Below, piece by piece: positions 18,710 to 60,120 of a DNA stretch of 64,000 nucleotides. The stretch lies in NCBI RefSeq assembly GCF_012913485.1, contig NZ_CP051774.1, positions 4,278,001-4,342,000 of the forward strand. Direction: 5' to 3'. The notes under the pieces were generated by a model that was not told where the DNA came from, did no database searches, and was given only the letters and a program-made list of their open reading frames with translations. Positions within the stretch are counted from its first letter, which is position 1, and each line of letters starts with the position of its first letter. The DNA comes from Luteolibacter luteus (GTDB lineage: Bacteria; Verrucomicrobiota; Verrucomicrobiia; Verrucomicrobiales; Akkermansiaceae). A program made the translations under genes and the position numbers.

Positions 18710-18759
18710 GGTGCGTTCCTTGTCTTGTCATCGGGGCGGCGGCTCCCTAGGCCTCGGGG

Positions 18760-19581
18760 GTGCTTTCCGGCCCCGGTGAACTACTCCTCGCGCTACTTGC
18801 GGCGTTCTGCATCGGGATGTCGAAGGCGGGCTTCAGCGGGATTTCGCTGATCTCGGTCTTCATCATGGCGGAGCTTTACGGCGTGGTGCCTTCCACGGGT
18901 ATCGTGCTGCCGCTGCTGATTTTCGCCGATGTGGCGGTCTATCCGGCTTTCAAAAAGTATGGGAGCTGGAAGCCGGTCTGGAGTCTGCTGCCTGCCACGG
19001 TGGCAGGCCTCGCCATAGGCTGGTGGCTGCTAGGGGTGATTACCTCGGAGCCCACCGCCCGCAGAGTGATCGGTGGCTGCATCTTGGGGATGGTCCTCTT
19101 GCAGGCTCTGCGGATCTGGAAGCCTGCGCTTTCGGATCGGCTCGCGCATTCCCGTTCCTTTGGCTCGGCTGCCGGCGTGGCCGGGGGCATCACCACCATG
19201 CTGGCCAATGCCGCGGGACCGGTGATCCAGCTCTACCTGCTGTCCCGCCGGCTTCCGAAGATGGAACTACTCGGAATCGGAGCGCGCTTTTTCCTGCTGG
19301 TGAACATCATGAAGCTACCGCTCAGCGGAAGCCTCAACCTGATCACTCCGGTGACGCTGATGGACAACGCCAAGTGTGTGCCCGGCGTGGTAGCCGGGAT
19401 CCTCATCGGGAAATGGCTGATCCAGCGGGTCTCCCAACGGGTTTTCGAGTGGATGGTGATCAGCTTTGCTGTCCTTGCCGCGGGGCGTCTCCTGTTCTTT
19501 ACGCCCGACCAGCATCGCTCACGACCGGCGGCGGTGATTCAACTCCTGCCAGTTCTGGAAAGCGAACAAGGCGAGGAATAG
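18760..19581 (+). CDS. TSUP (TauE/SafE) family anion transporter
   Basis: This 273-aa polytopic inner-membrane protein, starting at GTG 18760 behind a purine-rich CGGGGGTG context, has about eight hydrophobic segments. The duplicated TSUP signature is seen near the start as CIGMSKAGFSGISLISV and in the second half as SFGSAAGVAGGITTMLANAAGPVI. Family members export sulfite, sulfoacetate or similar organosulfur anions; linkage to the sulfatase 11 kb away is only suggestive. Its last 63 bases overlap, tail to tail, the 3' end of the M50 peptidase gene on the other strand. Confidence 0.88.
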   Translation: MLSGPGELLLALLAAFCIGMSKAGFSGISLISVFIMAELYGVVPSTGIVLPLLIFADVAVYPAFKKYGSWKPVWSLLPATVAGLAIGWWLLGVITSEPTARRVIGGCILGMVLLQALRIWKPALSDRLAHSRSFGSAAGVAGGITTMLANAAGPVIQLYLLSRRLPKMELLGIGARFFLLVNIMKLPLSGSLNLITPVTLMDNAKCVPGVVAGILIGKWLIQRVSQRVFEWMVISFAVLAAGRLLFFTPDQHRSRPAAVIQLLPVLESEQGEE

Positions 19582-37503: not shown

Positions 37504-39513
37504 ATGCGTAAAGCCCTGATTGCCACCGCTCTGCTGTCCGCTGTCGCCTCTGCGGAGCCGACCATCATTCCCTTGCCGAAGGAGATGAAGACGGGCGAAG
37601 GGAGCTTCAAGTTTGGAGACGAGACCGGCATCCGTTTCGATAAGGATCTGGAACCGGTCGCCAAGCTCTTCGCGGATGACTTGAAGGCTCGTTCACAGCA
37701 CGAGGTGAAGCTGGTTCGGGAAGAACTCCGCATCATGCTGCCTTCCGAGATCCGCTTGGACCTCGATGACTCCCTTCCGCTGAAGTCAGGCGGCTACAAG
37801 CTGGAGGTCACTCCGAAAGGCGTGTTGGTAACAGGCAAGGATGTGGCGGGTGCATGGTACGGCACGCGTAGTATTATTCAGATGATGCCCGCGTCGGGCG
37901 CCGAGGTATGGGCCACGACGAAGGGCGTGCCGATTCCTGCTGTCTCCATCACCGATGAGCCGCGCTTTGGCTGGCGCGGGATGCATTTGGATGTCGGGCG
38001 CCATTACTTTCCCGTGGATGACATCAAGGGCTTCATCGATTGGCTCGCCTTTCACAAGATGAACACCTTCCATTGGCACCTGACGGAGGACCAAGGCTGG
38101 CGGATCGAGATCAAGAAGTACCCGAAGCTCACGGAGATTGGGGGCTTCCGCGATTCCTCGCCGCCCTATGGCAACCGCTATGCCGACGACGGCCAGCGCT
38201 ACGGTGGTTTCTATACGCAGGAACAAATCAAGGACGTGGTGGCCTACGCGGCAGCCCGCCAGATCACCATCGTGCCGGAAATCGACATGCCCGGACACAT
38301 GGCCGCGGCGATCGCAGCCTATCCAGAACTGGGCAACTCGGACATCTCCGGCTACGCCCCCAAGGTGCAGACCCGTTGGGGTGTGCATCCTTACACGCTG
38401 GCTCCCACCGAGGAAACCTTCCGTTTTGTGGATGACGTCCTGACCGAGCTCTGCGAGCTCTTCCCCTCGCAATACATCCACATCGGCGGGGATGAGGCAC
38501 CCAAGGACCAATGGGAGTCATCCCCACGCGTGAAGGAGTTGATGAAGAAGGAGAAGATGAAGGATGGGCACGATGTGCAGAGCTACTTCATCAAGCGCGT
38601 GGAAACGATGCTGGAGAAGAAGGGCCGCAAGCTTGTCGGCTGGGATGAGATCCGCGAAGGCGGCCTGTCTCCGAATGCCACCGTGATGTCGTGGCGAGGT
38701 GAGGCCGGGGGAATTGCTTCTGCCAAGGAGGGCCACGACGTGGTGATGGCCTCCAATAGCCATCTTTACTTCGACCACTATCAAGCTCCGGCTGCCGATG
38801 AGACGGCCAAGGGCAAGCAGTTCGAGGCAATCGGAGGCTTCCTCCCCATCTCCAAGGTCTACTCCTACGACCCGGTTCCCAAGGCGCTGACCGCCGAGGA
38901 AGCCCGACATGTCCTCGGAGTGCAGGCCCAGCTCTGGACGGAGTATATGAAGGATTGGGACAAGGTGGAATACATGGCCTTTCCCCGGATCTCAGCTCTG
39001 GCCGAGATCGCCTGGACACCGGTGGAACGAAAGAACTACGATGACTTCCGTGCCCGCTTGGATGGTGTCTTGAAACACTATGATGCCGCCAAGGTGAAGC
39101 GGGCCGAGCCGTTCGATCCGCCGAAGCCCCAGACAAAGGATGGCAGCACGGTCGAGACTTCGCTCGAGAGCTATCAAGAGCACTGGGCGGAACTGGCTTA
39201 CGATGGCAAGCCCGACACCTTCTTCTGGGCTGACCGGTCCTTGAAGGCGGGCGACCACCTTACGCTCACGCTTCGTGCTGCAGTCTCCGGCAAGGCGCGG
39301 GTCATCACGGGCGGCAAGGCCAGTCGGAATGGGGACAAGCTTGGGGAAGGTGTTCTGGAAGCCTCATCGGATGGTAGCAAGTGGGCCGAGGTTGCTTCTT
39401 TCAAGGAGGGCATCGCCGAAGGCCCTCTTCCGCCGGCAACCACCAGCCTGCGCATTCGCGTGACGAAGCCCCAGGAGAATTGGTTGATCATCCACGAGAT
39501 CGAGGTGGAATAA
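37504..39513 (+). CDS. Secreted beta-N-acetylhexosaminidase, GH20
   Basis: This 669-aa exported hexosaminidase cleaves terminal GlcNAc/GalNAc residues by substrate-assisted catalysis. A signal peptide (MRKALIATALLSAVASA) is followed by the GH20b N-terminal domain (about 20-150) and the catalytic TIM barrel (about 152-500). The barrel carries MNTFHWHLTEDQGWRIEIKK and the catalytic pair HIGGDEAPKDQW (D330-E331). The last about 130 residues (SLESYQEHWAELAYDGKPD onward) form an F5/8 type C-like beta-sandwich. The protein fits chitin, glycan or mucin degradation, together with the sulfatase and other hydrolases in the window. Confidence 0.95.
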   Translation: MRKALIATALLSAVASAEPTIIPLPKEMKTGEGSFKFGDETGIRFDKDLEPVAKLFADDLKARSQHEVKLVREELRIMLPSEIRLDLDDSLPLKSGGYKLEVTPKGVLVTGKDVAGAWYGTRSIIQMMPASGAEVWATTKGVPIPAVSITDEPRFGWRGMHLDVGRHYFPVDDIKGFIDWLAFHKMNTFHWHLTEDQGWRIEIKKYPKLTEIGGFRDSSPPYGNRYADDGQRYGGFYTQEQIKDVVAYAAARQITIVPEIDMPGHMAAAIAAYPELGNSDISGYAPKVQTRWGVHPYTLAPTEETFRFVDDVLTELCELFPSQYIHIGGDEAPKDQWESSPRVKELMKKEKMKDGHDVQSYFIKRVETMLEKKGRKLVGWDEIREGGLSPNATVMSWRGEAGGIASAKEGHDVVMASNSHLYFDHYQAPAADETAKGKQFEAIGGFLPISKVYSYDPVPKALTAEEARHVLGVQAQLWTEYMKDWDKVEYMAFPRISALAEIAWTPVERKNYDDFRARLDGVLKHYDAAKVKRAEPFDPPKPQTKDGSTVETSLESYQEHWAELAYDGKPDTFFWADRSLKAGDHLTLTLRAAVSGKARVITGGKASRNGDKLGEGVLEASSDGSKWAEVASFKEGIAEGPLPPATTSLRIRVTKPQENWLIIHEIEVE

Positions 39514-40364: not shown

Positions 40365-41717
40365 TTAGAACTCCACTTTGCCGCGGCCCTGAACGCGCTT
40401 CCAAACGGGGCCCTTGGGGTCGTAGGGCGGCGCGTTGTCCGCATTGGTGGGTTCCGGCAGGCCACCGTCCAGGCGGAAGAGCGGAAAGATGGGGGATCCG
40501 CTCGGGCTCGACTCATACTTCTGGCCGATTTCCTCGATGAGAAGAGAAGCGCAGAAAAGACCGCCGGGGATTTCGCTGATCAGAATCTCGATCGGGTATT
40601 TCTTGCCGGCTTCCACCTCGAATTCCTTGCCGACCGCGAGTCCGCCGATCGCACCGTTCCAGTTGCGGGTGGTGTCATATTCGTAGAACTTTACCGGGAG
40701 CTTCACCGGGTAGTCACCCTCCTTCAGCTTGGCGAGCATGTTGTCGTCCTCGACTTCTTCCTTGAGCACCTGGATGCCTTTGCCGGAGAGGTGAACTCCT
40801 GTGGTACCGGAGGTGAAGCCGTGGTCGAAGACATGCTTGCCGTTGAAGCGGACCACGAGCACGTCGTCGCCCGCTCCCACGAAGCGGAACTTCCCGCTGC
40901 GGGGCGGGGTCACCATGCCGCGATAGACTACCACCCATAGCCTCGGCTGCACTTCCTTCTCGCAATTGAATGCGGCAGGTGCGCCTTCCGCGGCCATGAT
41001 CGGGATGTAGATCTTGGTCTGATAGAGCTTCTGGGAAGCCTGATAGTAGTCCTTCAGGACGCTCTCCCTCCACCCCCGATTGGTGAATTCCTTGATGATG
41101 TCGCGAATGTTCTCGGTCGTGACCTCGGACTGCTTCTTTTTGTTCGTCTGCTTGAGATCGTAGAAGGTGCCTTCAAGCGCGTTCTCGTTCGGGTTGATCA
41201 TCCCGAAGGGATTGACCAGACCGGTACCGCCGGGAGTCAGGCCCATGCCGGAACCCGAGCCGAATCCTTGGCCTGTTCCATCGCCCTTGCCGCCACCGCT
41301 GCCGGAGCCGCCGAGACCTCCTGCCATGCCGCCCGAGCCGATCTCACCCATTGAAGCCATCTCTGTCATGGCTTCCGGTTCGGGCAGCGTGAATTCGCTC
41401 GCGACATCCTGGGCTACCACGCGCGGCATATTCTGGCGCATCATGTTGGCGCGCTTCTTTTGCTGCGTCTGGCTCTGGGAATCCGGGCTTCCGCCGCCGC
41501 CGCTTGCGGGCATGAAGTCCACCGCCTTTTTGGGCTCCGGAGGAATGATCTGGAATACCCAAACCACCCCGATGGCCAGCAGGATGGCGTGGAGGATGAT
41601 GGAGATCGATAGCGACCCGCCGCCAAGCCTTCTCCAGAAAGACAGCTTGGCCTTCTCATAGATTACGGTCGTCGGTTGCTCGCCTTCGTAGGTGAAATCT
41701 TCTTCTTCTTGATTCAT
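40365..41717 (-). CDS. TonB-like membrane anchor + Gly-rich linker + PA14-like domain protein
   Basis: This is a 450-aa inner-membrane-anchored protein. A cytoplasmic stretch (about 1-33) leads into one transmembrane helix (about 34-54) reading LSISIILHAILLAIGVVWVF. It contains the SxxxH pattern that in TonB supplies the histidine needed for ExbB/ExbD coupling. A VDFMPASGGGG segment, QQKKRA and a long Gly-rich linker (about 125-165) follow. The periplasmic part (about 250-420) resembles a PA14 beta-sandwich (SGKFRFVGAGDDVLVVRFNG). The first about 100 residues are nearly the same as in the neighbouring toroid protein. No TonB C-terminal domain is present. It has its own terminator; a terminator also separates it from the upstream gene. 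Confidence 0.8.
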   Translation of the reverse strand: MNQEEEDFTYEGEQPTTVIYEKAKLSFWRRLGGGSLSISIILHAILLAIGVVWVFQIIPPEPKKAVDFMPASGGGGSPDSQSQTQQKKRANMMRQNMPRVVAQDVASEFTLPEPEAMTEMASMGEIGSGGMAGGLGGSGSGGGKGDGTGQGFGSGSGMGLTPGGTGLVNPFGMINPNENALEGTFYDLKQTNKKKQSEVTTENIRDIIKEFTNRGWRESVLKDYYQASQKLYQTKIYIPIMAAEGAPAAFNCEKEVQPRLWVVVYRGMVTPPRSGKFRFVGAGDDVLVVRFNGKHVFDHGFTSGTTGVHLSGKGIQVLKEEVEDDNMLAKLKEGDYPVKLPVKFYEYDTTRNWNGAIGGLAVGKEFEVEAGKKYPIEILISEIPGGLFCASLLIEEIGQKYESSPSGSPIFPLFRLDGGLPEPTNADNAPPYDPKGPVWKRVQGRGKVEF

Positions 41718-41849
41718 CGGGTGCGTTCCGAGGGGACAAACGCAGGACTTCCCAAACCCTTAGGCCTATTGTCGCGGAATCTTCACAAAAACGTATTTCA
41801 TAGGTCAAAAAGCTCCACGGGATGCCAGTGTCTCGGCACCTTTCGGGAG

Positions 41850-41884
41850 CAAAAAAGAACCCCGGTCATCGCGACCGGGGTTCC
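41850..41884 (-). terminator. Intrinsic terminator of the toroid-domain gene
   Basis: A perfect 11-bp hairpin (41857-41867 with 41873-41883) is followed on the minus strand by six T (complement of 41851-41856). It lies 34 bases past the stop of 41918-43555. Confidence 0.92.
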
Positions 41885-41917
41885 TTGAGATATCTTGTTC
41901 CGTTTCGTTACGGTGAA

Positions 41918-43555
41918 TTAGATGCCGCGCTTCTTGACGGCTCCGCCACCGCTGTCCGTGCTGAGGAAGCGGTAGTAAACCTCCAGCATCAACGTGCAGA
42001 GGGTGGTGCGGTAAAGGCGACCGTCCTCATTGTTGTCCGCGTAGCGGGCGGCCACGGCGCGGATTTGCTGACCACCACCCGGCACCTTCCAAGAACCGTC
42101 GGTTTCCTGGTTTTCCAGCAGCTGATCACGGAAGAGCTTGTTGTATTTCTTCCAAGCCTCGCCGCCCTGCTGCATCATTGCTTGGGACTCATAATAGTGA
42201 CCGTAAAGGTCGCAGAACTTGCCGTTGTACTCGAACTTGGTCTTCTCCAGAATGTAGTCGCCGGCCTTACGGACTTCGGAGCGACCGCCCTTGCCCCACA
42301 TCTGGTGGCAGAGCATGCCCACGCCGGTGAGCGTGTGGTAGTCTAGGCCTCCCGAGGCGTCCTTGTTGCTGTAGCCGAAGCCACCGTCATCAGCCTGGCA
42401 CTTCACGAGATATTCCAGACCGCGGTTGATCGAGCCGTTCATGCCGCGGAACTTGATGCCGGAGTGAGTGCAGGCCTTGAGCGCCTGAATCTGCCAGCCA
42501 GCGATCGAAACGTCGCCGCCGCGATCGCCTTCGGTGTCGTAGGAATAGTCCCAGCCGCCGCTCTTGTGCTGGTTGTCGATGATGTATTGGCCCGCCTTCT
42601 GGGTGACTTCCATCAGGTTCGGGACATCGATCTTGAGGTCCTTGCAGAAGGTGGCGGCTTCGCCCAGCGCGTAGGTGGCGATGCCATGCTCGTAGCTCCA
42701 ATGCTTGTCCCCGAGGTTCTCGGACATCTTGCCCTCGGTCTTCACGCCAAGATTTACCAGATAGACGATGCCCTTCATGCAGGACTCACCGTATTCCTCG
42801 GAGACCGGGGTCTCGCAGTGGCCGAAGTAGGCCAGCAGCGCGAGGCCGGTCATCGCCGTCTGATTGTTGCCACCCCAAGAGCCGTCGGGATTCTGCTTGG
42901 ACTTTAGCCATTGAAGCGCCTTCACCACGGCTTCCTCGCACTGCGGGGTGCCGCCGTTTTCAGAGAGACGCAGGAGGCGGTCCTCCTTCGAGCAACGCTT
43001 GCGCATGGACTCGGGGATCAGGCCGAAAAGCTTGCCTGCACCCGCACCGCCAAAACCGAAGCCATTGCCATCGCCGCGACCGCCGCCGCTGCCCTTGCCA
43101 AAGCCGCTGCCATCACCAGCACCACCGAGGCCGCCGGACATGCCGCCACCGCTCAGGGAGCTCAGGGAGGACATTTCGCCGAAATTGTCGCCCGGATCCG
43201 GGATCGCGAAATTCGAGGTAGCCCCCTCCGCGAAGACGCGCTTCACGTTTGTCGAGGGCGTGATCTGGGCGCGCTTTTTCTGCTGCACGTCATACTGCAT
43301 GCCGCGCTCGCCGCCACCGCCGCCGCCGCCGCCGGAGGGCATGAAGTCCACGTTCTTCTTCGGTTCCTGGATGATCTGGAACACCCAGAACGCTCCGAGG
43401 ACCAGCAGGGCCACGTGGAAAAGGATCGCGATCGAGAGGGCACCGCCGCCGATCCGTTTCCAGAGGCTCAGCTTCTTCTTTTCGAAGATGGTATGGGCGT
43501 GGGCGTGCTCGCCTTCCTCGCTCTGGTAATATTCAAACGATTCGTCGTCGTTCAT
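41918..43555 (-). CDS. TonB-like membrane anchor + Gly-rich linker + prenyltransferase/squalene-cyclase-like toroid
   Basis: This is a 545-aa protein. After an acidic, His-rich N-terminus (HAHAHT) comes one helix, LSIAILFHVALLVLGAFWVF (about residues 40-59), with the TonB-type intramembrane histidine. VDFMPSGGGGG, QQKKRA and a long Gly-rich linker (about 130-180) follow, as in the PA14 neighbour. The C-terminal about 340 residues form an alpha/alpha toroid with repeats such as ALQWLKSKQNPDGSWGG, QYIIDNQHKSGGWDYSYD and YLVKCQADDGGFGYS, the pattern of prenyltransferase/squalene oxidase repeats. The cyclase DxDD motif is not seen, so catalysis is doubtful; it may instead bind glycan or protein. 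It lies downstream of ExbB-ExbD-ExbD. Confidence 0.82.
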   Translation of the reverse strand: MNDDESFEYYQSEEGEHAHAHTIFEKKKLSLWKRIGGGALSIAILFHVALLVLGAFWVFQIIQEPKKNVDFMPSGGGGGGGGERGMQYDVQQKKRAQITPSTNVKRVFAEGATSNFAIPDPGDNFGEMSSLSSLSGGGMSGGLGGAGDGSGFGKGSGGGRGDGNGFGFGGAGAGKLFGLIPESMRKRCSKEDRLLRLSENGGTPQCEEAVVKALQWLKSKQNPDGSWGGNNQTAMTGLALLAYFGHCETPVSEEYGESCMKGIVYLVNLGVKTEGKMSENLGDKHWSYEHGIATYALGEAATFCKDLKIDVPNLMEVTQKAGQYIIDNQHKSGGWDYSYDTEGDRGGDVSIAGWQIQALKACTHSGIKFRGMNGSINRGLEYLVKCQADDGGFGYSNKDASGGLDYHTLTGVGMLCHQMWGKGGRSEVRKAGDYILEKTKFEYNGKFCDLYGHYYESQAMMQQGGEAWKKYNKLFRDQLLENQETDGSWKVPGGGQQIRAVAARYADNNEDGRLYRTTLCTLMLEVYYRFLSTDSGGGAVKKRGI

Positions 43556-43843: not shown

Positions 43844-44302
43844 CTATTCCGGCGCGCCGGCTTGGAAGGTTACGTTGCTGATCTGGGCCCGGGTGAGGGC
43901 ATCCAGAACATCCACCACGCGCTCGTACTTCGCCAGTTCGTTTGCGTAGATGGTCACGAGGACCTTGGTTTTGGTGGCTTCCGAGGCTTCGCGGAGGCCA
44001 TTGAGGGTGCTGGCGAGCTGGGGCAAGTCTTTCGACCCCGGCTCGTCCATCGGCTCCTCGTTCATGTAGATCTGGCCGTCGTCTTCCACCACGATCGAGA
44101 CTTCGTCAGGAAGCTCGACCGCCGTCTCGGACTCGACACTGCCCGGGAGCTGGGTGACGTGGGAATTCTCGACCTGGATATCGCCAGCCTGGACGATGAA
44201 GAAGAGAAGGATCACGAACACCACGTCGATCATCGGCGCGATCTGGAAGCCCAGGTTGACCTCGGAGGAATGCTTCCGCCGGTGACTGCGTTTCTTTTTC
44301 AT
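43844..44302 (-). CDS. ExbD/TolR-family biopolymer transport protein (second ExbD of cluster 1)
   Basis: This 152-aa protein has a short basic cytoplasmic start (MKKKRSHRRKHSS), one transmembrane helix and a periplasmic domain. The functional Asp is in APMIDVVFVILLFFIV (about residues 22-37). ATG 44302 is chosen over an upstream in-frame start at 44356 because that would overlap the preceding ExbD gene. The gap to that gene is 7 bases. It is the last gene of the TPR-ExbB-ExbD-ExbD operon. The periplasmic part differs strongly from the other ExbD, suggesting a heteromeric complex. Confidence 0.9.
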   Translation of the reverse strand: MKKKRSHRRKHSSEVNLGFQIAPMIDVVFVILLFFIVQAGDIQVENSHVTQLPGSVESETAVELPDEVSIVVEDDGQIYMNEEPMDEPGSKDLPQLASTLNGLREASEATKTKVLVTIYANELAKYERVVDVLDALTRAQISNVTFQAGAPE

Positions 44303-44309
44303 GGCAGTG

Positions 44310-44744
44310 TCACTTGTTCGAGGATGCGAAGGCGATGTCGGCGATCCCGGCTTCACCGATCAGGTTCATGGCGCGCTGGATCTCGCCCGCAGGGACATCC
44401 TTGTCGCCACGCACCACGACGCGGAGCTTTTCATCGCGCTTCTTGTTTTCCTGAAGAACCGGCACGAGCTCCTGCCAATCGGTGTAGACCTTGTCGTCCA
44501 CGACCAGGATACCCTTGTTGGTCCCCGCGTCGAAGCGGAGGTTCACGGCATACTCGTGCTTGGCCATTTCCGGCTCCCGCTTCTTCGCATTCGGCGAAAC
44601 GGGAAGCGTGAGGGCTTTGTCGACCTTGAGCACCTCAGCCGAGGTGATCATGACGAAGAACACGAGCAGCACGAGCAACACGTCGATCATCGGAGCGATC
44701 TGGAACTCCGGTTCCCCGTCTCCTCCTCCACCTCCACCGGCCAT
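44310..44744 (-). CDS. ExbD/TolR-family biopolymer transport protein (first ExbD of cluster 1)
   Basis: This 144-aa protein has a Gly-rich start (MAGGGGGGDGEPEF) before the single helix APMIDVLLVLLVFFVMI, with the proton-translocating Asp near residue 20. The periplasmic domain ends with VVRGDKDVPAGEIQRAMNLI, typical of ExbD. It follows the ExbB gene by 50 bases and precedes the second ExbD by 7, in one operon. Together with ExbB it should form a proton-driven stator unit. Confidence 0.92.
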   Translation of the reverse strand: MAGGGGGGDGEPEFQIAPMIDVLLVLLVFFVMITSAEVLKVDKALTLPVSPNAKKREPEMAKHEYAVNLRFDAGTNKGILVVDDKVYTDWQELVPVLQENKKRDEKLRVVVRGDKDVPAGEIQRAMNLIGEAGIADIAFASSNK

Positions 44745-44794: not shown

Positions 44795-45577
44795 TCAGCC
44801 TTCCGGGGCGTCGATCCAGTTCGGCAGCGCGGCGTAGGTTTCTTCCTGACCCACGTCCGTGTTCTGGAGATACTCGTAAGGCGCGTTGCGGAACAGGCGC
44901 TCGGAGGTTTCCTGGAGGTGGTGGATGGCACCCTGCAGCTTGTTGCGCAGGAAGTAGAAGGCGGCGAAGGCCGGAATGGCGACGAGAAGACCCGTGGCAG
45001 TAGCCACAAGCACCTCACCGATGTGGCCGGCAAGTTCGCCCACACCACCGGAGAGACCGGTGGAACCAAGGCTACCGAAGGCACCCTTCATACCACCCAC
45101 GGTGCCGAGCAGACCGATCATCGGAGCACACACACCGATAACCGAAAGGTAGTTAATGCGAGTCTGAAGAGTGGAGTTGATCTTGTCGACGGTGGAGTAG
45201 AGGGCCTCTTCGGTGGCATCCTTGCCGTGACCGACGGAACCCAGACCGGCGCGCACCACTTCGGCGAAGGGGCTGATACCCGCCTTCATCGCCTGATAGG
45301 CACCCACGTAGTCACCGGCGCGGAAAAGCTCCTGGGCGGTGGTGACGTCCTCCGGAGGCGTCATCTTCGGACGGTTCGTCCGCATCCAGATGTCAATAAT
45401 GAGCCAGACCATCGCGATCGAGCAGACGAGCAGGACGTGCATGACCCAGCCACCTTCGATGTAGGTGTCGATCAGCGTTTTCTTTTCGCCGGGAGCATGG
45501 GCAGCTTCCGCAGCGGATACGGCCATGGGGACGAGCAGGGCGGCGACAGCGGTGGCTGCCTGGATGGTCTTTTTCAT
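44795..45577 (-). CDS. MotA/TolQ/ExbB proton-channel protein (cluster 1)
   Basis: This 260-aa protein has an N-terminal signal-like segment (ATAVAALLVPMAVSAAEAA) ahead of the usual three helices, which makes the first periplasmic part longer than in E. coli ExbB. The diagnostic core is NYLSVIGVCAPMIGLLGTVGGMKGAF followed by GEVLVATATGLLVAIPAFAAFYF. It precedes the two ExbDs and follows the secreted TPR-type genes in the same direction. It forms the pentameric channel that lets ExbD and a TonB-like partner use the proton motive force. Confidence 0.93.
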   Translation of the reverse strand: MKKTIQAATAVAALLVPMAVSAAEAAHAPGEKKTLIDTYIEGGWVMHVLLVCSIAMVWLIIDIWMRTNRPKMTPPEDVTTAQELFRAGDYVGAYQAMKAGISPFAEVVRAGLGSVGHGKDATEEALYSTVDKINSTLQTRINYLSVIGVCAPMIGLLGTVGGMKGAFGSLGSTGLSGGVGELAGHIGEVLVATATGLLVAIPAFAAFYFLRNKLQGAIHHLQETSERLFRNAPYEYLQNTDVGQEETYAALPNWIDAPEG

Positions 45578-45633: not shown

Positions 45634-46497
45634 TTACTTCATGCTTTCCAAAAGCTTCGCGGCTTCGTCGCCGATGCTTGTTCCCTTGGCACCGCGCTCG
45701 GCGGAGGTCAGGAGAGCCACGGCTTCTTCCCGGCGGTTCTTCCCGCTGAGAATCTGGGCTGCGCGCAATTCGGAAGCACTGGTAACGATGATGCCTCCCG
45801 TCGGGTAGAGGCAGCCCACGGTCAGGTAGGCTTGGAACGCCTCGTCAGGACGCTCGTATTGTTGAAGTAGCTTGGCACGGCAGAAGGATGCCACGGCGCT
45901 GATCTCAGCCGGGAGATCCTCTGACACAAGGTCGCCAAAGGCACCGATGCGGTCGGTGGATTTCACGCCCTTGCCCAGTGCCATCGCCTTGCCGAGGCGG
46001 ATGGAAGGGTCGTTACCCTGTTGCGGGGTCGCGTCGGAGATTTCCTTGCCAAGAGTCTCCGCCTTGGCGGGCTCGTTGTACAACGAGTTCGCATAGAGCG
46101 CGGCGCGGGCCGCTTCCACCCAGTAGTTGCCGGGCACGCTGGCAGAGGCCTTCTGGCTCGCGAGGATGGGTTCAAGAAGGGCCAATGCCTCTTTCGGCTT
46201 CTCCTCCAGGACCAAAGCGATGGCCTGATTGATTGCTGCCGGTTTTTCGCCGGAAACATGGCTGGCCGAGTTCAGGGCGAAGGATTGGCCGGCGGCCACA
46301 CCATCGGAATCCTTCTTCAGCACGAACTTGCCACCCTCGACAGCGAGGGCGTCCACGGTGATGCCGCGTCCGTTGGAGAAAACGATCTTCGGATTTTCGA
46401 CTTTGGGGGCGTCCTGCGCTTGCAAGCTGCCACCGATGAAAGAAACGAGAGCGAAGGCCAAGGCGCCGGACCAGCCGGTCGAGGAAAGGTTTTTCAT
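45634..46497 (-). CDS. Secreted helical-repeat protein, 287 aa
   Basis: The signal peptide is ALAFALVSFIGGSLQAQ. The mature part begins with a small beta-rich segment (NGRGITVDALAVEGGKFVL), then TPR-like helical repeats (AINQAIALVLEEKPKEALALLEPILA; ARAALYANSLYNEPAKAETL). No specific family is recognised. It lies 12 bases after the large TPR protein and 56 bases before ExbB, so it is very likely a periplasmic part of the same system, comparable in position to CpoB/YbgF-type partners of Tol systems (inference). Confidence 0.72.
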   Translation of the reverse strand: MKNLSSTGWSGALAFALVSFIGGSLQAQDAPKVENPKIVFSNGRGITVDALAVEGGKFVLKKDSDGVAAGQSFALNSASHVSGEKPAAINQAIALVLEEKPKEALALLEPILASQKASASVPGNYWVEAARAALYANSLYNEPAKAETLGKEISDATPQQGNDPSIRLGKAMALGKGVKSTDRIGAFGDLVSEDLPAEISAVASFCRAKLLQQYERPDEAFQAYLTVGCLYPTGGIIVTSASELRAAQILSGKNRREEAVALLTSAERGAKGTSIGDEAAKLLESMK

Positions 46498-46509: not shown

Positions 46510-49425
46510 TTATCGGACGAGGGTTTTCGCCTTCTTGGCTTCTTCAGTGTTTTGCAGCTTCGGATTCTCCGCGAGTGCCTTCAGGCACTGCTGTTCCAGC
46601 TCGTTGTTGCCAAGATCCTTGGCGACTTCATAACTCCCCCACAAGGAGCGGGCGAAGAGGTCGGTCTCGCGCTGGTAGGCGCGCCAGACCCTCTCGTAGC
46701 GGGCGTAGGCGGCCTTCAGGGTCGCGATGCTTTCGCTTGGCGGCTGGTCCTTGGCGATCTTGCGCTCGGTATCGGCCCAGATGATGTAGGCCTTTGGAAC
46801 GGCCGGGCCACCCTTGAAGGAGCGGTCCTTGATGATCTTGTCCGCCAGCTCCACGACTTCCTTGTTCTGGCCGAGGTCATACATTGCCTCCAGCTTGCCG
46901 AGGGTCGCTTCCTTGAAGCGCGAGGTGCCATTGTTGTTTTCCAAGGCATCCTTGAAGATGGCCAGGGCTTGGTCCGGCTGCTTGCGAAGCAGGGCGATCT
47001 GGCCCAAGCCCACCGGGCCGGCGTCCGAGAAGGGCGAGTCCTTGTAGCGCTCCGCGAGGCGTTTGAAGTTCTCTTCCGCGCGATCCAAATCGCCGGACTT
47101 CATGAGGATGTCCGCGCAGAGGGCCAAGAGCGTCGGGCTCAGGTCGGCGGCCTTCACGTCGGTGTTCATCGCGAGGTTACGCAGGTAGTCGTTGGCGGTC
47201 TGCGTTTCCTTCAGGATCATCATCATGCGGGCTCGCGCATAGTAGATCCGGGCATAGGTAGTTTGGTTCTCCTTGCCCTCCGCGGCCTTGTCCAGCATGT
47301 CCACGAGCTGCTGCTCAAGGGCCTTCACGTCGAGGTCCTTCGGACGGCGGCGTGGGGTCAGGCTCTTCACGATCTCATCAATGAGGAATTCCACCTGCTC
47401 CTTCGACGGGTCCGCGATGCTCTTCGAGAGCGTCTTGGAAAGGATCTCGGCACCTTCGGCTTCCTTGCCCTGACGGGCCATGGCCTTCGCGACCCAAGTC
47501 GCAGAGATCATCGCCATCTGGTGATTCGGGCGCTTGGAGAGGAACTCCTCGTGAAGCTTCGCCAGTCCGTCCCAGTCCTTGCGGCCCTGAAGGATGGTGG
47601 TGGCCGTTTCCAGGGCGTACTGGATCACGTCGTCCGGGCTGTCGCTCCAGACGGCCTTGATGTAGTTGGCCAGCGCGTTGTCCTCGTAAGTCTTGGCCGT
47701 CGCGGGGTCGTTCGATTTCATCTTCTTCCATGTGTCCGCCATCAGGCAGTACATGGAACCCGCGGCTGCATCGTCCGGCTTCTTTTCAAGGTAATCGCCC
47801 AGGCTCTTGATGATGTTCTGGGACTGGTCCTCCGTCTTGTCGTTGAAATCAACGAAGGCCAGACGGTAAAGCATGTCGCCCGCGTAGCGCCCGTCCGGAT
47901 ACTTGTTCAGGTAATCGCGGCACCAGAAGAGCGTCTTCTCGTAGTTGTTGGTGAGGAAGTAGGCCATCGCGATGCGATAGACGGCGTCCTCCACCATCCG
48001 GTTGTCCGGATAGGTCTTGATGAAGTTCTCGAAGTGGGCGGCGGAGCCTTGGAAGTCCCCGCTCTGGAAGAGCGCCACACCTTGGAAGAAAACGAAGCGG
48101 TCCAGCGAGGGAGAGTTCGGGAAGCGCTTTTCAAGGTCCTGATAGTACTTCAGCACCTGGTCCCACTTGCCCGTCTGCACCAGCACTTCGCCAGCGAGGG
48201 TAGCTACCTGTTCGACGTTCGGAGCGTCCGGATACTTCGTGAGGAACTCGTTTGCCAGCGTCTGGATCTTATCGGTGTCCTTCAGGCCGTTGTAGATCAC
48301 GATTTCGGCATAGGCGGCCGATTGTGCATCCTTGGCGGTCGGATACTTCTCGCGCAGCGTGCGGAAGCAAAGGAGAGCTTCTTCGTTCCGGTCGAGGTAG
48401 TAGAAACAGCGCCCGCGGCGCATCAGCAGGGCGGCGTCGAGGTCAGTGAGCTTCTCGATCGCGGCGATGGCTTCCTCGGTGAGCTTGATGGAGGATTGGG
48501 TCTGGTTGAGGCGCTCGCCGACGTTTGAGCGCTGGCCGAGCGGCTTTTTCTCTTCCGCCTTGGCGAGGTTCTCCAGCTTTCCGAGTTCCTGCTTCTTTGC
48601 TGCCAGCGTAGCGGCCTGGATCTGCAGAATCTGCGCGCGCGGCGGGATCGAGCGATAAATGGCGAGGGCGGCCTCGTAGTTTTCGGCTCCCACAAGTTCA
48701 TCGCCCTTCACGATCACTTGGTTCGAATACCAAGCGATGGCATCGCGGATGCCCGGCTGGTTGATGATCCGATCAAGGTAGGCGATGAGGTCGGCGAGCT
48801 GTCCGGTGTCGGCCAGCAGGCCGATCACTTCCACGGCGGCCTGGGTCTGCTCCGGAGTCTGGATGTCCGAGCCCATCAGGCTGCGGAAGACCTTCAGTGC
48901 TTCCTCGTGCTTGTTGGTGTCCGTGTAAAGCTGGCCGAGCAGGAGGCCTGCCTGGGTGCGGTACTTCGGGTCGAGGGCTGCCTTTCGCAGCGCTTCGGTA
49001 GCCCGGTTCTGCTTTTCCTCGCCGCCTTGCTTGATGGCCGCGGTGCCGACACCCAGATAGCAACGGGAGGTGTACTCGCCGTTCGGGAATTTAACGATGC
49101 AGTCTGTAAAGGCTTTCTCCGCCGCCTCGTAGTTCTCGGCCAGCAGGTGTGCCAGACCGAGATTGAAATGAAGCATTTCCGAAGAAGCTTCCTTCTTGTT
49201 GCCGAGGGCTTTCAGCAATTCGTCGATTTTGGCGGCGGCGGTCGCGTAATCTTTGCTAGCGAAGGCAGCTTCGGCGTCTTCGAACAGCTTGTTGAGGACA
49301 GCCGGGGCTACCGTCTGTCCCGCCGGGGCGGGTGCTGGCTCCTGGGCCATCACCCAAACGGGTGACGCCGATAGCAGGAAGGCGCTCAGCAAATGACGGG
49401 GGACGGTGAGTTTTTCCATTCGCAT
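46510..49425 (-). CDS. Large secreted TPR protein, 971 aa
   Basis: This exported protein (signal LLSAFLLSASPVWVMAQ) is made almost entirely of tetratricopeptide repeats. Examples: HFNLGLAHLLAENYEAAEKAF, VFRSLMGSDIQTPEQ, YPDNRMVEDAVYRIAMAYF and ENFKRLAERYKDSPFSD. Typical W/L/G/Y/A/F/A/P positions recur about every 34-38 residues. It starts the operon that continues with the 287-aa protein, ExbB and two ExbDs. The start could be ATG 49425 or the in-frame ATG 49419 two codons later. It is probably a periplasmic scaffold binding the energised complex. The long antisense frame on the other strand is a composition artefact. Confidence 0.85.
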   Translation of the reverse strand: MRMEKLTVPRHLLSAFLLSASPVWVMAQEPAPAPAGQTVAPAVLNKLFEDAEAAFASKDYATAAAKIDELLKALGNKKEASSEMLHFNLGLAHLLAENYEAAEKAFTDCIVKFPNGEYTSRCYLGVGTAAIKQGGEEKQNRATEALRKAALDPKYRTQAGLLLGQLYTDTNKHEEALKVFRSLMGSDIQTPEQTQAAVEVIGLLADTGQLADLIAYLDRIINQPGIRDAIAWYSNQVIVKGDELVGAENYEAALAIYRSIPPRAQILQIQAATLAAKKQELGKLENLAKAEEKKPLGQRSNVGERLNQTQSSIKLTEEAIAAIEKLTDLDAALLMRRGRCFYYLDRNEEALLCFRTLREKYPTAKDAQSAAYAEIVIYNGLKDTDKIQTLANEFLTKYPDAPNVEQVATLAGEVLVQTGKWDQVLKYYQDLEKRFPNSPSLDRFVFFQGVALFQSGDFQGSAAHFENFIKTYPDNRMVEDAVYRIAMAYFLTNNYEKTLFWCRDYLNKYPDGRYAGDMLYRLAFVDFNDKTEDQSQNIIKSLGDYLEKKPDDAAAGSMYCLMADTWKKMKSNDPATAKTYEDNALANYIKAVWSDSPDDVIQYALETATTILQGRKDWDGLAKLHEEFLSKRPNHQMAMISATWVAKAMARQGKEAEGAEILSKTLSKSIADPSKEQVEFLIDEIVKSLTPRRRPKDLDVKALEQQLVDMLDKAAEGKENQTTYARIYYARARMMMILKETQTANDYLRNLAMNTDVKAADLSPTLLALCADILMKSGDLDRAEENFKRLAERYKDSPFSDAGPVGLGQIALLRKQPDQALAIFKDALENNNGTSRFKEATLGKLEAMYDLGQNKEVVELADKIIKDRSFKGGPAVPKAYIIWADTERKIAKDQPPSESIATLKAAYARYERVWRAYQRETDLFARSLWGSYEVAKDLGNNELEQQCLKALAENPKLQNTEEAKKAKTLVR

Positions 49426-50216: not shown

Positions 50217-50681
50217 TCAGCGGGCCCCCGCCTTCTTCAGTTGCTCCACCGCCTCGTTGAGACGATTGCGGGTAGAGACCAAGCTCTCATTCAACTGCTT
50301 AATCTTGGTGTCTCGGTCCGCGATCGCTTCGTCACGGGCCTTCAGAGCCTCTTCCCACTCTTTCACCTTGGTCTGGGCGTCCACGATGTTGGCGTTGAGT
50401 GCCTCCACTTCCTTGGATTTCTCTTCCAGATCCTTGGTGTTCTCCTCGGATTCCTTGCGGATCGAATCGATCGAAATCTTCAAGCCATCGACGTCCGCCT
50501 GGAGCTTCTTCTTGTCGAATTCCAAGCTGGTCCGGGTGTTCTCCTCTTGGATCAGCTTGGTCTCCAGCTCGTGCAGCTTCTTGCTGAGGGCGGTGCCACC
50601 GACCCACTGGACGAGAATGAAGGCGACCAGAACGGCGCAGCCCACGGCATTGATGATCGGCAGCAGTCGGGCGGCGGTCAC
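50217..50681 (-). CDS. Membrane-anchored coiled-coil protein, last gene of the TonB cluster
   Basis: This 154-aa protein has one N-terminal helix (LLPIINAVGCAVLVAFILVQW, about residues 6-26) and then an almost uninterrupted coiled coil to the C-terminus (LHELETKLIQEENTRTSLEF, KDLEEKSKEVEALNANI). Its ATG overlaps the ExbD stop by 4 bases, so it is translated with that complex. It may be a spacer or structural partner in the periplasm. No family is recognised. Confidence 0.75.
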   Translation of the reverse strand: MTAARLLPIINAVGCAVLVAFILVQWVGGTALSKKLHELETKLIQEENTRTSLEFDKKKLQADVDGLKISIDSIRKESEENTKDLEEKSKEVEALNANIVDAQTKVKEWEEALKARDEAIADRDTKIKQLNESLVSTRNRLNEAVEQLKKAGAR

Positions 50682-51103
50682 TGGGCGGGTGCTTTGGTTT
50701 CAAAGGCAGCCTTGTCGACCTTCGCAGCCTTCACGGCATCGAGGACGGCCATGGCCTGGCCCATGTTACAACTGGTATCGGCAGCGATCAGGACCTTGGT
50801 GTCCGGGGTTACCGGCAGGGAAATCAGTCGATCCGTGATCTCGGTGGGGGTCACGATTTTTGCGTCCCAAGTGATCACCCCGTGGCTATCGATCGCGAGA
50901 TGGATCGGAGGAGCCTTCTGGGTTTGCTCGGAGGCGGCAGCCACCGGCAGCTTGATGTTGACCCGGTTGATCTGGGTCATGCTCAGGCTCACCATCATGA
51001 AGCTGGCGAGAAGGAAGAACATGATGTCGATCAGGGGCACGATCTCGATCCGTGCGTCCTCCTCATGGTCGTCGCCACCGCTACTCTGGAGTTTGATCGG
51101 CAT
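50678..51103 (-). CDS. ExbD/TolR-family protein (cluster 2)
   Basis: This 141-aa protein has the functional Asp in IVPLIDIMFFLLASFMMV (about residues 21-38) and a periplasmic domain ending in TSCNMGQAMAVLDAVKAAKV. It follows ExbB by 6 bases. It is distinct in sequence from both cluster 1 ExbDs. Together with the ExbB and TonB genes just upstream it makes a conventional energised transducer. Confidence 0.92.
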   Translation of the reverse strand: MPIKLQSSGGDDHEEDARIEIVPLIDIMFFLLASFMMVSLSMTQINRVNIKLPVAAASEQTQKAPPIHLAIDSHGVITWDAKIVTPTEITDRLISLPVTPDTKVLIAADTSCNMGQAMAVLDAVKAAKVDKAAFETKAPAQ

Positions 51104-51109
51104 GCCGGA

Positions 51110-51778
51110 TCAGCGCTTGTTGAGATGGCGGTCGTTCGCGAAGACTTCCAGATCGTGACCGTGAGCTTTGGCCGATTGAGCCAGCAGTTCGGCATGGTTG
51201 ATCCAGCGCTCAAAGGCGCCGCGCAGGGTGGACACCCGCTTGCGGAAATAATTGTAGGGAAGCAGGCAGCCGATCGCGATGGCCAAGCCGCAGGCGGTAG
51301 CGATGAGGGCTTCGGCGATGCCGCCGGTCACCTTTGTCACGCCGAGCTGTTCATCGCCAAGGGATGCAAAGGAGCCCATCAGGCCGACCACGGTGCCAAG
51401 CAGGCCGAGCAGGGGGGCGAGGGTGATGATGGTGCCAAGCACCCACATCCGGGCTTCGGATTTTTCGATCCAGTGGGTGGCATGAATGTGCATCGCCGCC
51501 AGCATGGATGTGTGCGCGTGGGACATGCCTTCGTTGAGATTCACAAGGAAGGGATCCTTGTTCTGCTCCCCGAGCTGCCAGGCTGCGTTGAAATTGCCAG
51601 TCCCCAGAGCCTCACGGGCTTGTTCCTGGGCATCGGGGCGTAGGGACTTTTTCCAAGCGACCCACCAGATGGTGCGCTCCAAGAGGACACAAACGGCAAG
51701 GAAGAAGGTGGCGGCCACGGGCCACATGATCCAGCCCCCTTCATGGAAATACTTTACGACAACGTTGGCGAGGACCAT
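51110..51778 (-). CDS. MotA/TolQ/ExbB proton-channel protein (cluster 2)
   Basis: This 222-aa protein has three helices: the first at about residues 14-34 (GGWIMWPVAATFFLAVCVLLE), then the core LGTIITLAPLLGLLGTVVGLMGSF and GGIAEALIATACGLAIAIGCLL. It has no extra signal segment, unlike the cluster 1 ExbB. It begins 3 bases after the TonB stop and lies 6 bases before ExbD. Confidence 0.93.
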   Translation of the reverse strand: MVLANVVVKYFHEGGWIMWPVAATFFLAVCVLLERTIWWVAWKKSLRPDAQEQAREALGTGNFNAAWQLGEQNKDPFLVNLNEGMSHAHTSMLAAMHIHATHWIEKSEARMWVLGTIITLAPLLGLLGTVVGLMGSFASLGDEQLGVTKVTGGIAEALIATACGLAIAIGCLLPYNYFRKRVSTLRGAFERWINHAELLAQSAKAHGHDLEVFANDRHLNKR

Positions 51779-51781
51779 GGA

Positions 51782-52576
51782 TCAGGAATTCAAACGGAAT
51801 AAGACAGACTTGGTCGCGGTGGCGCGTGTGCCCGGGGGGTATTTCGCCCGGCGGGCGCATCGGATGACTTCTGCGTCGAGCGAAGCATTTCCAGAAGAAC
51901 CGCGGATCGACGCATCCACCACGTTGCCGCGTTCATCGACAGTCAGGAAAACCACCACACGTCCTTCGATGCCCGCCCTCCGTGCTTCGGCAGGGTAGTT
52001 CGGCTTGGGAAAGCGACCGCCGGCAAAACGCGCGGAGCCCATCGGGCTGGATCCGCCGCCTGCCACATTGCCAGCACCGGAACCGGTTCCAGCACCGCTT
52101 TGACCGCTGGAGGAAGCCTTGCGCGCACCCGGAGTACTTTCCTTGGCTTTGCCACTGGTATTTCGAGCGACAACCTTCGGCTTGGGGGCCGACTCCGGTG
52201 CTTTCACTGCCGGCTTCTGTGGGGTCGGTTGAGGAAAATCAGGAATCTCGGGCAGCGGCTCCATTTCCGCCACGTCGGGGATTTCCGGGAGTGCTTCGTC
52301 CGGAACCTCGGGAAGCTCGGCCTCGGCCACCTGTTCTTCAGGCACGCTTTCTTGGTCGGTGACTTCTTCGGTCGGATCCGAAGCGGGAGCCGAGCCTTGC
52401 GACATATCACTCAGATCCACCTCGGTGCCAATATCGGCATCAATGAGCTGCCCCATGGAGATCAATTCCGGGAGGCGCTCGGAGAGGTGGATCGTGCAGG
52501 CCACCGTGCTCGCGCCTGCCACCGTCAGCCATGTGGCGAAGGTGCCAATGTTGAGTGCGTAGATGAAGGGGCTCAC
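51782..52576 (-). CDS. TonB-family energy transducer
   Basis: This 264-aa protein has an N-terminal helix (NIGTFATWLTVAGASTVACTIH, about residues 9-30), a Pro/Glu-rich periplasmic spacer (ELPEVPDEALPEIPDV, LPEIPDFPQPTPQKP) and the TonB C-terminal fold FPKPNYPAEARRAGIEGRVV with VFLTVDERGNVVDASI. It is the first gene of the TonB-ExbB-ExbD-coiled-coil operon, transcribed on the minus strand from the gap at 52577-52724. It should energise outer-membrane transport, but no TonB-dependent receptor lies in this window. Confidence 0.93.
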   Translation of the reverse strand: MSPFIYALNIGTFATWLTVAGASTVACTIHLSERLPELISMGQLIDADIGTEVDLSDMSQGSAPASDPTEEVTDQESVPEEQVAEAELPEVPDEALPEIPDVAEMEPLPEIPDFPQPTPQKPAVKAPESAPKPKVVARNTSGKAKESTPGARKASSSGQSGAGTGSGAGNVAGGGSSPMGSARFAGGRFPKPNYPAEARRAGIEGRVVVFLTVDERGNVVDASIRGSSGNASLDAEVIRCARRAKYPPGTRATATKSVLFRLNS

Positions 52577-58228: not shown

Positions 58229-59635
58229 CTACCCGATCCCCTTCAAAGGCGTCGTCGCGTCTCCAAGTTCCTTCGCCTTCACTCCGGCCTTGTCCAGCAT
58301 GCCCAGCCACAGAGAACAGAGCGGCGTGCCTTCCTCATAGACCTCGTGCGTTCCGGTTTTCAGCCCGGCCTTGGAGCCACCGGCGATGACGACCGGGACA
58401 TTCTTTGGATCGTGCGAATTGCCATCCCGGATCGGCGAGCCGAAAGTCACCATGGAGTGTTCGAGCAAGGTGCCATCGCCCTCCTTGATCTCCTTCATCC
58501 GGTCGAGCATGTAGCCATACTGCTGCACGTGCCAGTGGTTGATCTTCTCATACTGGTCGAGCTTGCTGCCGTCGTTGCTGTGATGGGAAAGATCATGGTG
58601 TCCTCCGTTCACACCTTCGAGGAAGGAGAAATTCCGGCCGGTCACGTCGTTGCCGAACATGAAGGACGAGACACGGGTCGAGTCCGACCAGAAGGCGAGC
58701 ACCATCAGGTCCATCATGATCTGGCAGTGCTCGGAATGATCGAAACGAGGACGCGAGTTCAGTTCTTCCTCGCGGCTAGCCTTGCCCATCGCCTTGGAGA
58801 TCCGCTTGTCCAGCACGTCGAGCTGCTTGAGAAGCTCGGGCGGCAAGTTCTCTCCGGCACCGAGCATGGCGGCCTCCGCCTCGATGCGGCGTTCCACCTC
58901 GCGGATCGATTCCAGATACTGCTCCAGCTTGTGCTTGTCGGCTTGGCCTAGCTTTGATTGCAGGCGCTTGGCATCGGTGCTCACCAGATCCAGCACCGAC
59001 TTGTCATCGGCTGCCTGCTTCTCCCCGTCCTTCGAGCGGCTGCGGAAAAGGCGGTCGAAGGCCACACGAGGATTGATCTCGCAGGGCAGGGGCACGGTCG
59101 ATGTCTTCCAGGAAATGTGGGACGCGTAGAGGCGCGTGTAGTTCACATTGGTATCGATGCCGGTGGCCACCGGTTCGGTACCCAGTTCGAGCGAGGGGAG
59201 CTTGGTATCCCGCCCGATCTGCTGGGCTGCGATCTGGTCCATGGAAACGCCGCCTGCCGCGATGTCGGAGCCCGTGGTCTTCGTGATCGTGGTGCCGGTT
59301 AGCCATCCGCCGGTCTTCACGTAGTGTCCGTCGCCGGTGAAGGATGCCTTGTTCTGCAGCCCGGTGAGGATAAGCAGGTCTTCGCGATGTTTCTCAAGCG
59401 GGGAGAGGATCGGCGAGAGCTTGAAACCCTTGCCCTTGCCATCCGGTGTCCAACGGTCGGCACGCACGCCATTCGGCATGTAGAGCAGCGCGATGCGGAT
59501 CGGGATCGAGCCCGGTGAGCCTGCCGCCATCAATGGCCGCATCGCATCAAGGAAAGGCAAGGCAAGCGTGGCACCGGTTCCACGGAGGAAGGCGCGGCGC
59601 GGCATGAGCCACTTCTGGGATTGGATGTTAGCCAT
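58229..59635 (-). CDS. DUF1552 family protein, Tat-exported
   Basis: This 468-aa protein has a twin-arginine signal (MPRRAFLRGTGATLALPFL). It contains the family motif HxxSHH in GGHHDLSHHSND, an alkaline-phosphatase-superfamily-like ending (MVTFGSPIRDGNSHDPKNVP) and conserved Trp/Gly near the start (VRADRWTPDG). ATG 59635 is chosen over 59689 because it leads into the signal. DUF1552 proteins regularly pair with DUF1592/DUF1588 cytochromes, encoded 0.5 kb upstream here. The biochemical role is unknown; the pair is typical of Planctomycetota and Verrucomicrobiota. Confidence 0.92.
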   Translation of the reverse strand: MANIQSQKWLMPRRAFLRGTGATLALPFLDAMRPLMAAGSPGSIPIRIALLYMPNGVRADRWTPDGKGKGFKLSPILSPLEKHREDLLILTGLQNKASFTGDGHYVKTGGWLTGTTITKTTGSDIAAGGVSMDQIAAQQIGRDTKLPSLELGTEPVATGIDTNVNYTRLYASHISWKTSTVPLPCEINPRVAFDRLFRSRSKDGEKQAADDKSVLDLVSTDAKRLQSKLGQADKHKLEQYLESIREVERRIEAEAAMLGAGENLPPELLKQLDVLDKRISKAMGKASREEELNSRPRFDHSEHCQIMMDLMVLAFWSDSTRVSSFMFGNDVTGRNFSFLEGVNGGHHDLSHHSNDGSKLDQYEKINHWHVQQYGYMLDRMKEIKEGDGTLLEHSMVTFGSPIRDGNSHDPKNVPVVIAGGSKAGLKTGTHEVYEEGTPLCSLWLGMLDKAGVKAKELGDATTPLKGIG

Positions 59636-59696
59636 GGTTTCAGCGGGTAGAGGGTTGAGGGAAGACGGGACGGATGAGGGGAAGATCAATCAAATC

Positions 59697-60119
59697 TCAC
59701 TGCTTCTCCGGTTTTGGGACGCGGTGAACCTTGTCTTCAATAATCCGGTAGGGGCCTGGTTCAGATACCAGTCGAGCGGCGGCCCCCGTTCCTTGGAAGG
59801 TCCAGCGGCGGTCGGTATTCGATGCAAGACGAACCGCAATGCGATCCTCGCGAGTCCAGTCCACGTAGCCAATGCAGGTCTTATAAAAATCGATCGGCTT
59901 GAGACCAGTATAGGCAATGTGAACTTTCAGGTCGGATGCCGTGGTAACCTTCCCTGGAACGGCCCCCTTGATCCAAAGATCACGGTGCATGGCAAGCGGT
60001 CCTCCGGCGCGGTGCGAAATGGTCAGGGACTGGTCCGGGTGAACAAATACCTTCGTCGAAGAGCATGATGCCAGCAGCGGCAGGGCAGCGAGGGAAAGGA
60101 ACTGGATCTTTGAAGGCAT
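59697..60119 (-). CDS. Lipoprotein of unknown function, between DUF1592 and DUF1552 genes
   Basis: This is a 140-aa lipoprotein candidate. The N-terminus MPSKIQFLSLAALPLLASC ends in a good lipobox (LLAS-C), and the mature part is beta-rich (VHPDQSLTISHRAG, DLKVHIAYTGLKPIDF). ATG 60119 lies one base from the stop of the DUF1592 gene; the longer frame to 60134 overlaps it. The gap to the DUF1552 ATG is 61 bases. Operon position suggests an accessory role for the pair. No family is recognised. Confidence 0.7.
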   Translation of the reverse strand: MPSKIQFLSLAALPLLASCSSTKVFVHPDQSLTISHRAGGPLAMHRDLWIKGAVPGKVTTASDLKVHIAYTGLKPIDFYKTCIGYVDWTREDRIAVRLASNTDRRWTFQGTGAAARLVSEPGPYRIIEDKVHRVPKPEKQ

Positions 60120-60120
60120 T

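Follow-up and report, generated by a model that had tools for sequence, protein, structure and literature searches.

The stretch analysed here (the window, 64,000 nucleotides in length) is part of the 6.41 Mb, single-contig genome of Luteolibacter luteus (NZ_CP051774.1, positions 4,278,001 to 4,342,000), and coordinates given without a locus label are positions within it. On its minus strand lies a cluster with the gene order TPR - p287 - ExbB - ExbD - ExbD - toroid gene - PA14 gene, in which the subunits of a TonB/TolA-like motor are followed by two candidate force transducers. The first gene encodes a large tetratricopeptide repeat (TPR) protein (46510-49425) with YbgF/CpoB/PorW-like repeats and, as judged by eye, a signal-peptide-like N-terminus. 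The second product, p287 (45634-46497), is kept in the operon, is weakly TPR-like and is probably periplasmic, given a signal-peptide-like N-terminus that was likewise judged by eye. The ExbB/TolQ-like channel subunit (44795-45577) carries in its first transmembrane helix (TM1) a serine that covaries with a histidine of the transducers, and two ExbD/TolR-like subunits follow (44310-44744 and 43844-44356), the second with a transmembrane aspartate that is invariant in all 17 aligned sequences. The toroid gene (41918-43555, 545 aa) begins 288 bp beyond the last ExbD gene and the PA14 gene (40365-41717, 450 aa) a further 200 bp downstream; the gap between ExbD and the transducer gene is below 70 bp in the related loci L048, L063, L070 and L081.

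Both downstream products were delimited with library models, structure models and alignments. In the PA14 protein, an anchor (residues 1-119, 41361-41717) that includes His43 is followed by a Gly-rich linker and a PA14 tail (residues 173-450, 40365-41201); in the toroid protein, the anchor (residues 1-124) includes His47 and leads, again through a Gly-rich linker, to the toroid (residues 183-545, 41918-43009). The two N-termini align over 120 columns with 49% identity (E 2e-26), and each contains one membrane helix with the histidine inside it; past this region the two proteins show no significant similarity. A profile search recovered six copies of the anchor in the window genome, that is, four in addition to this pair, with PA14 heads in four, a toroid in one and a vWA domain in one (L011, Pfam VWA). 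An earlier note, made from the sequence of the window alone, had described the strikingly similar N-termini, the single helix with an intramembrane His, the PA14 and toroid heads, the missing DxDD motif of the toroid and the position directly behind ExbB-ExbD-ExbD, all of which are borne out by the present analysis. Its further statement that the helix keeps the SxxxH pattern of TonB holds for the PA14 protein and for most of the family, and fails for the toroid protein, which has Ala at position -4 from the His.

The PA14 assignment of the 450-aa protein is based on a Pfam match of 24.6 bits (cut-off 24) and on a structure model with a predicted local distance difference test score (pLDDT) of 94.1, for which the best Foldseek match is the PA14 sugar-binding domain of an RTX adhesin (6m8m, E 6.6e-07). 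A search of PDB sequences gave matches mostly in the linker region, with Epa1 reached only at E 0.66. A D-[DN] pair, which we take to be the calcium site of PA14 lectins, is kept in 31 of 32 PA14 heads. The 545-aa protein matches SQHop_cyclase_C (33.8 bits, cut-off 26.1), and its model (pLDDT 85.5) superimposes on 2sqc with Z 26.2 and a root-mean-square deviation of 2.8 over 283 aligned residues; sugar-active toroid enzymes rank next, with Z about 21-23. These toroids carry three to four QW-like motifs, and cyclase activity is unlikely, though they may have another activity, because DxDD is missing in 16 of the 17 aligned, the window toroid included (L081 has one DGDD). The linker between helix and head has a median length of 105.5-111 residues in each of five head classes (87 proteins).

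To place this pair within a family, 387 Verrucomicrobiota genomes were surveyed with the anchor profile, a close anchor being defined by E 0.001 or better. Such anchors are present in 31 genomes and in 20 of 197 genera; since at most 13 candidates were scored per genome, the copy numbers, which reach 11, may be minima. The 92 anchor-bearing open reading frames (ORFs) collected from stretches around the profile matches carry PA14 heads (38), toroids (18) or heads of three vWA-like groups (18, 10 and 5), and three are truncated; the label of the vWA-like group of 18 is a reading of its DVSGSM start, two members tested having given no Pfam match. Twenty-five of these anchors, at 21 loci in 21 genomes, adjoin TPR-p287-ExbB-ExbD-ExbD, although three of the loci have the anchor ahead of the TPR gene, and neither the TPR gene nor p287 was seen in L117, whose contig is short. 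The other 67 are lone genes elsewhere. No partner emerged from the gene families found within 6 kb of them, of which a single one, sulfatase-like as judged from its N-terminal start, recurs in at least four genomes (five). For two lone PA14 anchors, another ExbB/ExbD pair lies at a distance of about 8 kb (L009, anchor 9005-10327 and ExbB 18116-18811; L012, anchor 8982-10283 and ExbB 17929-18627), which may be due to chance.

The order TPR-p287-ExbB-ExbD-ExbD-anchor is kept widely across the sampled Verrucomicrobiota, in answer to a check of neighbourhood conservation that the earlier note had proposed. Close anchors and close operon-type ExbDs also tend to be found in the same genomes: an operon-type ExbD, at E 4.6e-43 or better, is present in each of the 31 anchor-bearing genomes. 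Fourteen of these are independent cases, since the other 17 supplied rows of the ExbD profile. Of the 356 remaining genomes, 81 reach E 1e-36 or better (counted by hand). Within a sample of 44 genomes (38 + 6) from the order, 14 have both close forms and 30 have neither, and one genus (g1) is split, three genomes with and three without. The mucin-uptake locus reported from Akkermansia was considered in this connection and no link was drawn, the genus g2, Akkermansia by inference, being without a close anchor and having only more distant ExbDs.

Of 80 further operon loci that were fetched, 44 have behind the last ExbD a gene for a protein with an anchor-like membrane helix, joined to a vWA head in 41, to PA14 in two and cut by the contig end in one; in the other 36 a slot anchor was not recognised, nor in some of them the ExbB. 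Altogether, 62 operons have an anchor in this slot, with a vWA head in 45, a toroid in 11, PA14 in four and a cut tail in two. This distribution requires four changes on the ExbB tree, so that heads have been swapped while the anchor and the motor stayed the same.

In cryo-EM structures from Escherichia coli, TonB Ser16 and His20 are described as contacting ExbB Ser34 and Trp38, and TolA Ser18 and His22 as contacting TolQ Ser28 and Trp32, the histidine thus meeting a TM1 serine in both systems (PMC12215075; the residue contacts also in PMC12905483). A joint alignment of the helices of 136 anchors (the 92 above and the 44 from the further loci) has His in the corresponding column in 132, with Leu, Tyr and Thr once each and a gap for the L122 anchor, and Ser at -4 in 118 of 135. 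The aligned TM1 serine is likewise kept in 82 of 92 ExbBs from these loci. Across the 62 operons with a slot anchor, His and the ExbB serine occur together in 58, neither is present in three (L137, L147 and L153), His without Ser is seen once (L148) and Ser without His never (Fisher 1.06e-4, with the serine scored by ExbB alignment column and kinship ignored). On the ExbB tree, the three losses of His occupy separate rows and do not group together: L153 falls among His-bearing rows in a supported clade, the fork at which L137 branches is unresolved, and the supported sister of L147 is L148. As a control, the serine ranks first among 219 variable ExbB columns as partner of the His, the next best having p 0.0058, and the pairing inside the surrounding 20-row clade has p 0.0035. 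This covariation, which amounts to about three events in sequences and is not a structure, provides the strongest argument for docking in the present data.

A second comparison is offered by toroid proteins themselves. A scan of named genomes returned 498 toroid relatives, of which the best 80 loci were kept (Akkermansiaceae, Verrucomicrobiaceae, Haloferula, Luteolibacter, Prosthecobacter and others); they contain 89 toroid ORFs, 24 of which were dropped (17 with less than 3 kb upstream, seven partial or with an unclear helix), leaving 65 to be counted. An ExbD gene lies within 2.5 kb of 36 of the 42 toroids with a His-bearing helix and of none of the 23 without the His (Fisher 2e-12, kinship ignored). 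The corresponding figures for a same-strand ExbD within 500 bp are 35/42 and 0/23, the latter unchanged out to 8 kb, and four His-less loci inspected gene by gene have no motor gene directly beside the toroid gene. Six toroid genes of the His type are without a nearby ExbD. In Haloferula sp. BvORR071 (L203), a toroid gene of the His type lies next to ExbD and is followed by a PA14 anchor gene. One kind of head is thus carried by two different anchors, and the His goes with the motor. The His-less family (for example L222 8566-10062, L262 8566-10026, L277 and L278) has a different N-terminal helix, yet resembles the His type in its Pro/Ser-rich juxtamembrane stretch and in its Gly-rich linker. 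Two more toroids of the window genome (L013 6901-7887 and L014 7508-8692) have a signal-peptide-like stretch, no anchor match and 30% identity to the window toroid.

Other genes surround the operon in the window. A canonical TonB-ExbB-ExbD set (50678-52576, with TonB at 51782-52576) is located just upstream; together with a coiled-coil protein it occupies 50217-52576 on the minus strand, an arrangement that recurs in L046. The PA14 gene adjoins a plus-strand GH20 hexosaminidase gene (37504-39513), a gene pair encoding DUF1552 and Planctomycete cytochrome C/DUF1592 proteins is found at 58229-61977, and another ExbB-ExbD-ExbD cluster is present elsewhere in the genome (G000:C1 4759497-4760729). 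Scans for promoters and terminators gave chance-level results only, and no RNA family matched between 39000 and 53000.

The near-invariant His, the His-Ser covariation, the conservation of the operon and the control with His-less toroids make it probable that the anchor-bearing proteins are motor-coupled transducers, and we hold with considerable confidence that the window pair are force transducers of a TonB/TolA-like motor. By analogy with TonB and TolA, ExbB would form a pentamer that, with the two different ExbDs, constitutes the proton motor; the single transducer helix would dock on ExbB TM1 via its His, and usually also its Ser; proton flow at the ExbD aspartate would drive the movement; and the disordered, Gly-rich linker of about 110 residues would transmit the pull to the periplasmic head. 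The head would in turn determine what is pulled. It is vWA in most operons seen and a toroid in the order to which the window genome belongs, while certain lineages, and many of the lone paralogues, have PA14. If we were to guess, the TPR protein and p287 would be the likeliest shared partners, and the PA14 heads would hold a glycan ligand. We see an even chance that the arrangement is a general platform, in which a genome would run up to about ten transducers with a common docking helix, a similar linker and interchangeable heads (vWA, toroid, PA14) on one or a few proton motors, each lone paralogue adding a target for the same motor. The earlier note had also interpreted the pair as force transducers, and this part stands; for its proposal that the heads engage glycans or proteins and not TonB-dependent receptors, the data go no further than making glycan binding plausible, and for the PA14 head only, on account of its fold and the D-[DN] pair.

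Several observations weigh against such coupling. The earlier note held that it would be refuted if the module were found mostly in genomes without nearby ExbB/ExbD, and the outcome is mixed: 67 of the 92 anchors are indeed off the operon, although every anchor-bearing genome has an operon-type ExbD, 14 of them independently of the profile. Among 85 operons, 23 have no anchor in the slot by the rule applied; three of these (L047, L052, L122) have it upstream of the TPR gene, ten (L128, L130, L131, L132, L161, L174, L180, L184, L186, L198) have a close anchor elsewhere in the genome, L189 is cut by the contig end, and in the other nine, with L151 possibly a wrong-frame pick, no anchor was recognised. 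Positions +7 (mostly A/G/F) and +11 (mostly V/I/T) of the anchors differ from the TonB-spaced Leu and Ser of SHLS, a half of the motif that is reported to be less conserved in Ton (PMC12215075), and the position of TolQ Trp32 is not conserved in the 92 ExbBs, 37 of which have W/Y one residue later. The covariation has its own exceptions, as the His of L148 is kept though the ExbB Ser is lost and the anchor Ser at -4 does not covary significantly with the ExbB Ser (p 0.19), and its Fisher value, like that of the toroid comparison, treats kin as independent. Linker lengths are widely spread (51-128 residues in the same 87 proteins), and an ExbB/ExbD pair is found on the strand opposite to four His-less toroids (L222, L257 and two in L275), with ExbD 2.9-4.5 kb away. 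Finally, six of the 30 genomes of the order with neither close form were re-examined, and in each of them two more distant ExbDs lie in tandem. A broad anchor profile (A7) gave only weak matches in these genomes (best 9.4e-7, in G316), none beside the tandem ExbDs; the proteins matched may be of the His-less toroid type. Absence of the close forms may therefore partly mean divergence and not loss.

Three other explanations have to be weighed. If the N-terminus did no more than tether unrelated periplasmic domains to the membrane by a flexible linker, and the adjacency to ExbB/ExbD were incidental, the lone majority of anchors and heads unrelated to those of TonB and TolA would be readily accommodated. 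A plain anchor, however, has no known need either for the buried His found almost throughout the family or for covariation with one ExbB serine, and a toroid anchor that dispenses with the His does exist, with no same-strand ExbD beside any of its 23 copies; we consider this explanation very improbable. The heads could also be sensors or gates whose ligands, once bound, open the proton channel or regulate the motor, with no pulling at the outer membrane. The Ser-His network of TonB and TolA has been hypothesised to signal to the channel (PMC12215075), and many heads served by few motors would fit sensing, whereas the linker, about 110 residues long whatever the head class, fits, if only suggestively, a mechanical reach across the periplasm. 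Sensing as the sole function seems unlikely to us.

According to the remaining alternative, the operon would be a divergent Tol-Pal-like or gliding machine engaged in envelope upkeep, division or motility, and the PA14 and toroid proteins would bind peptidoglycan or outer-membrane proteins and not nutrients. The YbgF/CpoB- and PorW-like repeats of the TPR protein point in this direction, as does the suggestion that published vWA relatives act perhaps in gliding (PMC12204202, section 8). On the other hand, the TolB and Pal models matched none of the operon genes in the window (no search for either was made elsewhere), and the absence of the close form from 30 of 44 genomes of the order is ill-suited to an essential envelope role, unless a divergent stand-in is present; such a machine is a possibility that we regard as doubtful.

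TonB and TolA are the textbook routes by which the energy of the inner membrane reaches the outer membrane. Should a single motor serve a variety of heads, work in the envelope that is driven by energy would be far more diverse than these two. Many Verrucomicrobiota seemingly fit sugar-binding-like, ring-shaped or adhesion-like heads to one anchor, which suggests one motor with many pulled targets. By means of the His-Ser covariation, moreover, any candidate transducer can be tested for motor coupling from its sequence.

Compared with known systems, the window pair resemble TonB in the single transmembrane helix with Ser-X3-His (which in TonB contacts ExbB TM1; PMC12215075), a likeness complete in the PA14 protein, but have neither the Leu and Ser of SHLS nor, by Pfam and NCBIfam, a TonB C-terminal domain. 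They share the SxxxH helix with TolA in the same way, and residues 35-103 of the PA14 protein give a weak match to the TolA model (15.5 bits, cut-off 59.45), whereas the TolA C-terminal domain is absent by the same libraries. The toroid head has the alpha-alpha toroid and QW-like motifs of squalene-hopene cyclase without its DxDD, and is tethered behind a membrane helix and linker. The PA14 head has the fold and the Asp-Asp/Asn pair of PA14 sugar-binding domains (6m8m, Epa1, Flo5) at about 10-15% identity, and sits on a motor anchor instead of a surface adhesin. The closest relatives are the vWA force transducers, with predicted His docking, that Williams-Jones et al. (2025) described in this operon from the Planctomycetes-Verrucomicrobia-Chlamydiae (PVC) group (PMC12204202, Fig. 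4a/b). As presented there, these have the same succession of a TPR gene, a tolQ-like gene, a tolR-like pair and the transducer, a transmembrane helix with a conserved His, and a disordered domain II of about 100 residues that is similar in length to the linkers described here; the window proteins differ from them in bearing PA14 and toroid heads. The main text of that paper has no mention of PA14, prenyltransferase or toroid, nor its section 8 of lone paralogues, and no other description of such heads was recognised among the titles and abstract openings of the literature considered. The vWA head in this operon is therefore already published, while the PA14 and toroid versions in the same slot, the lone paralogues, the His-less toroid control and the His-Ser covariation are new.

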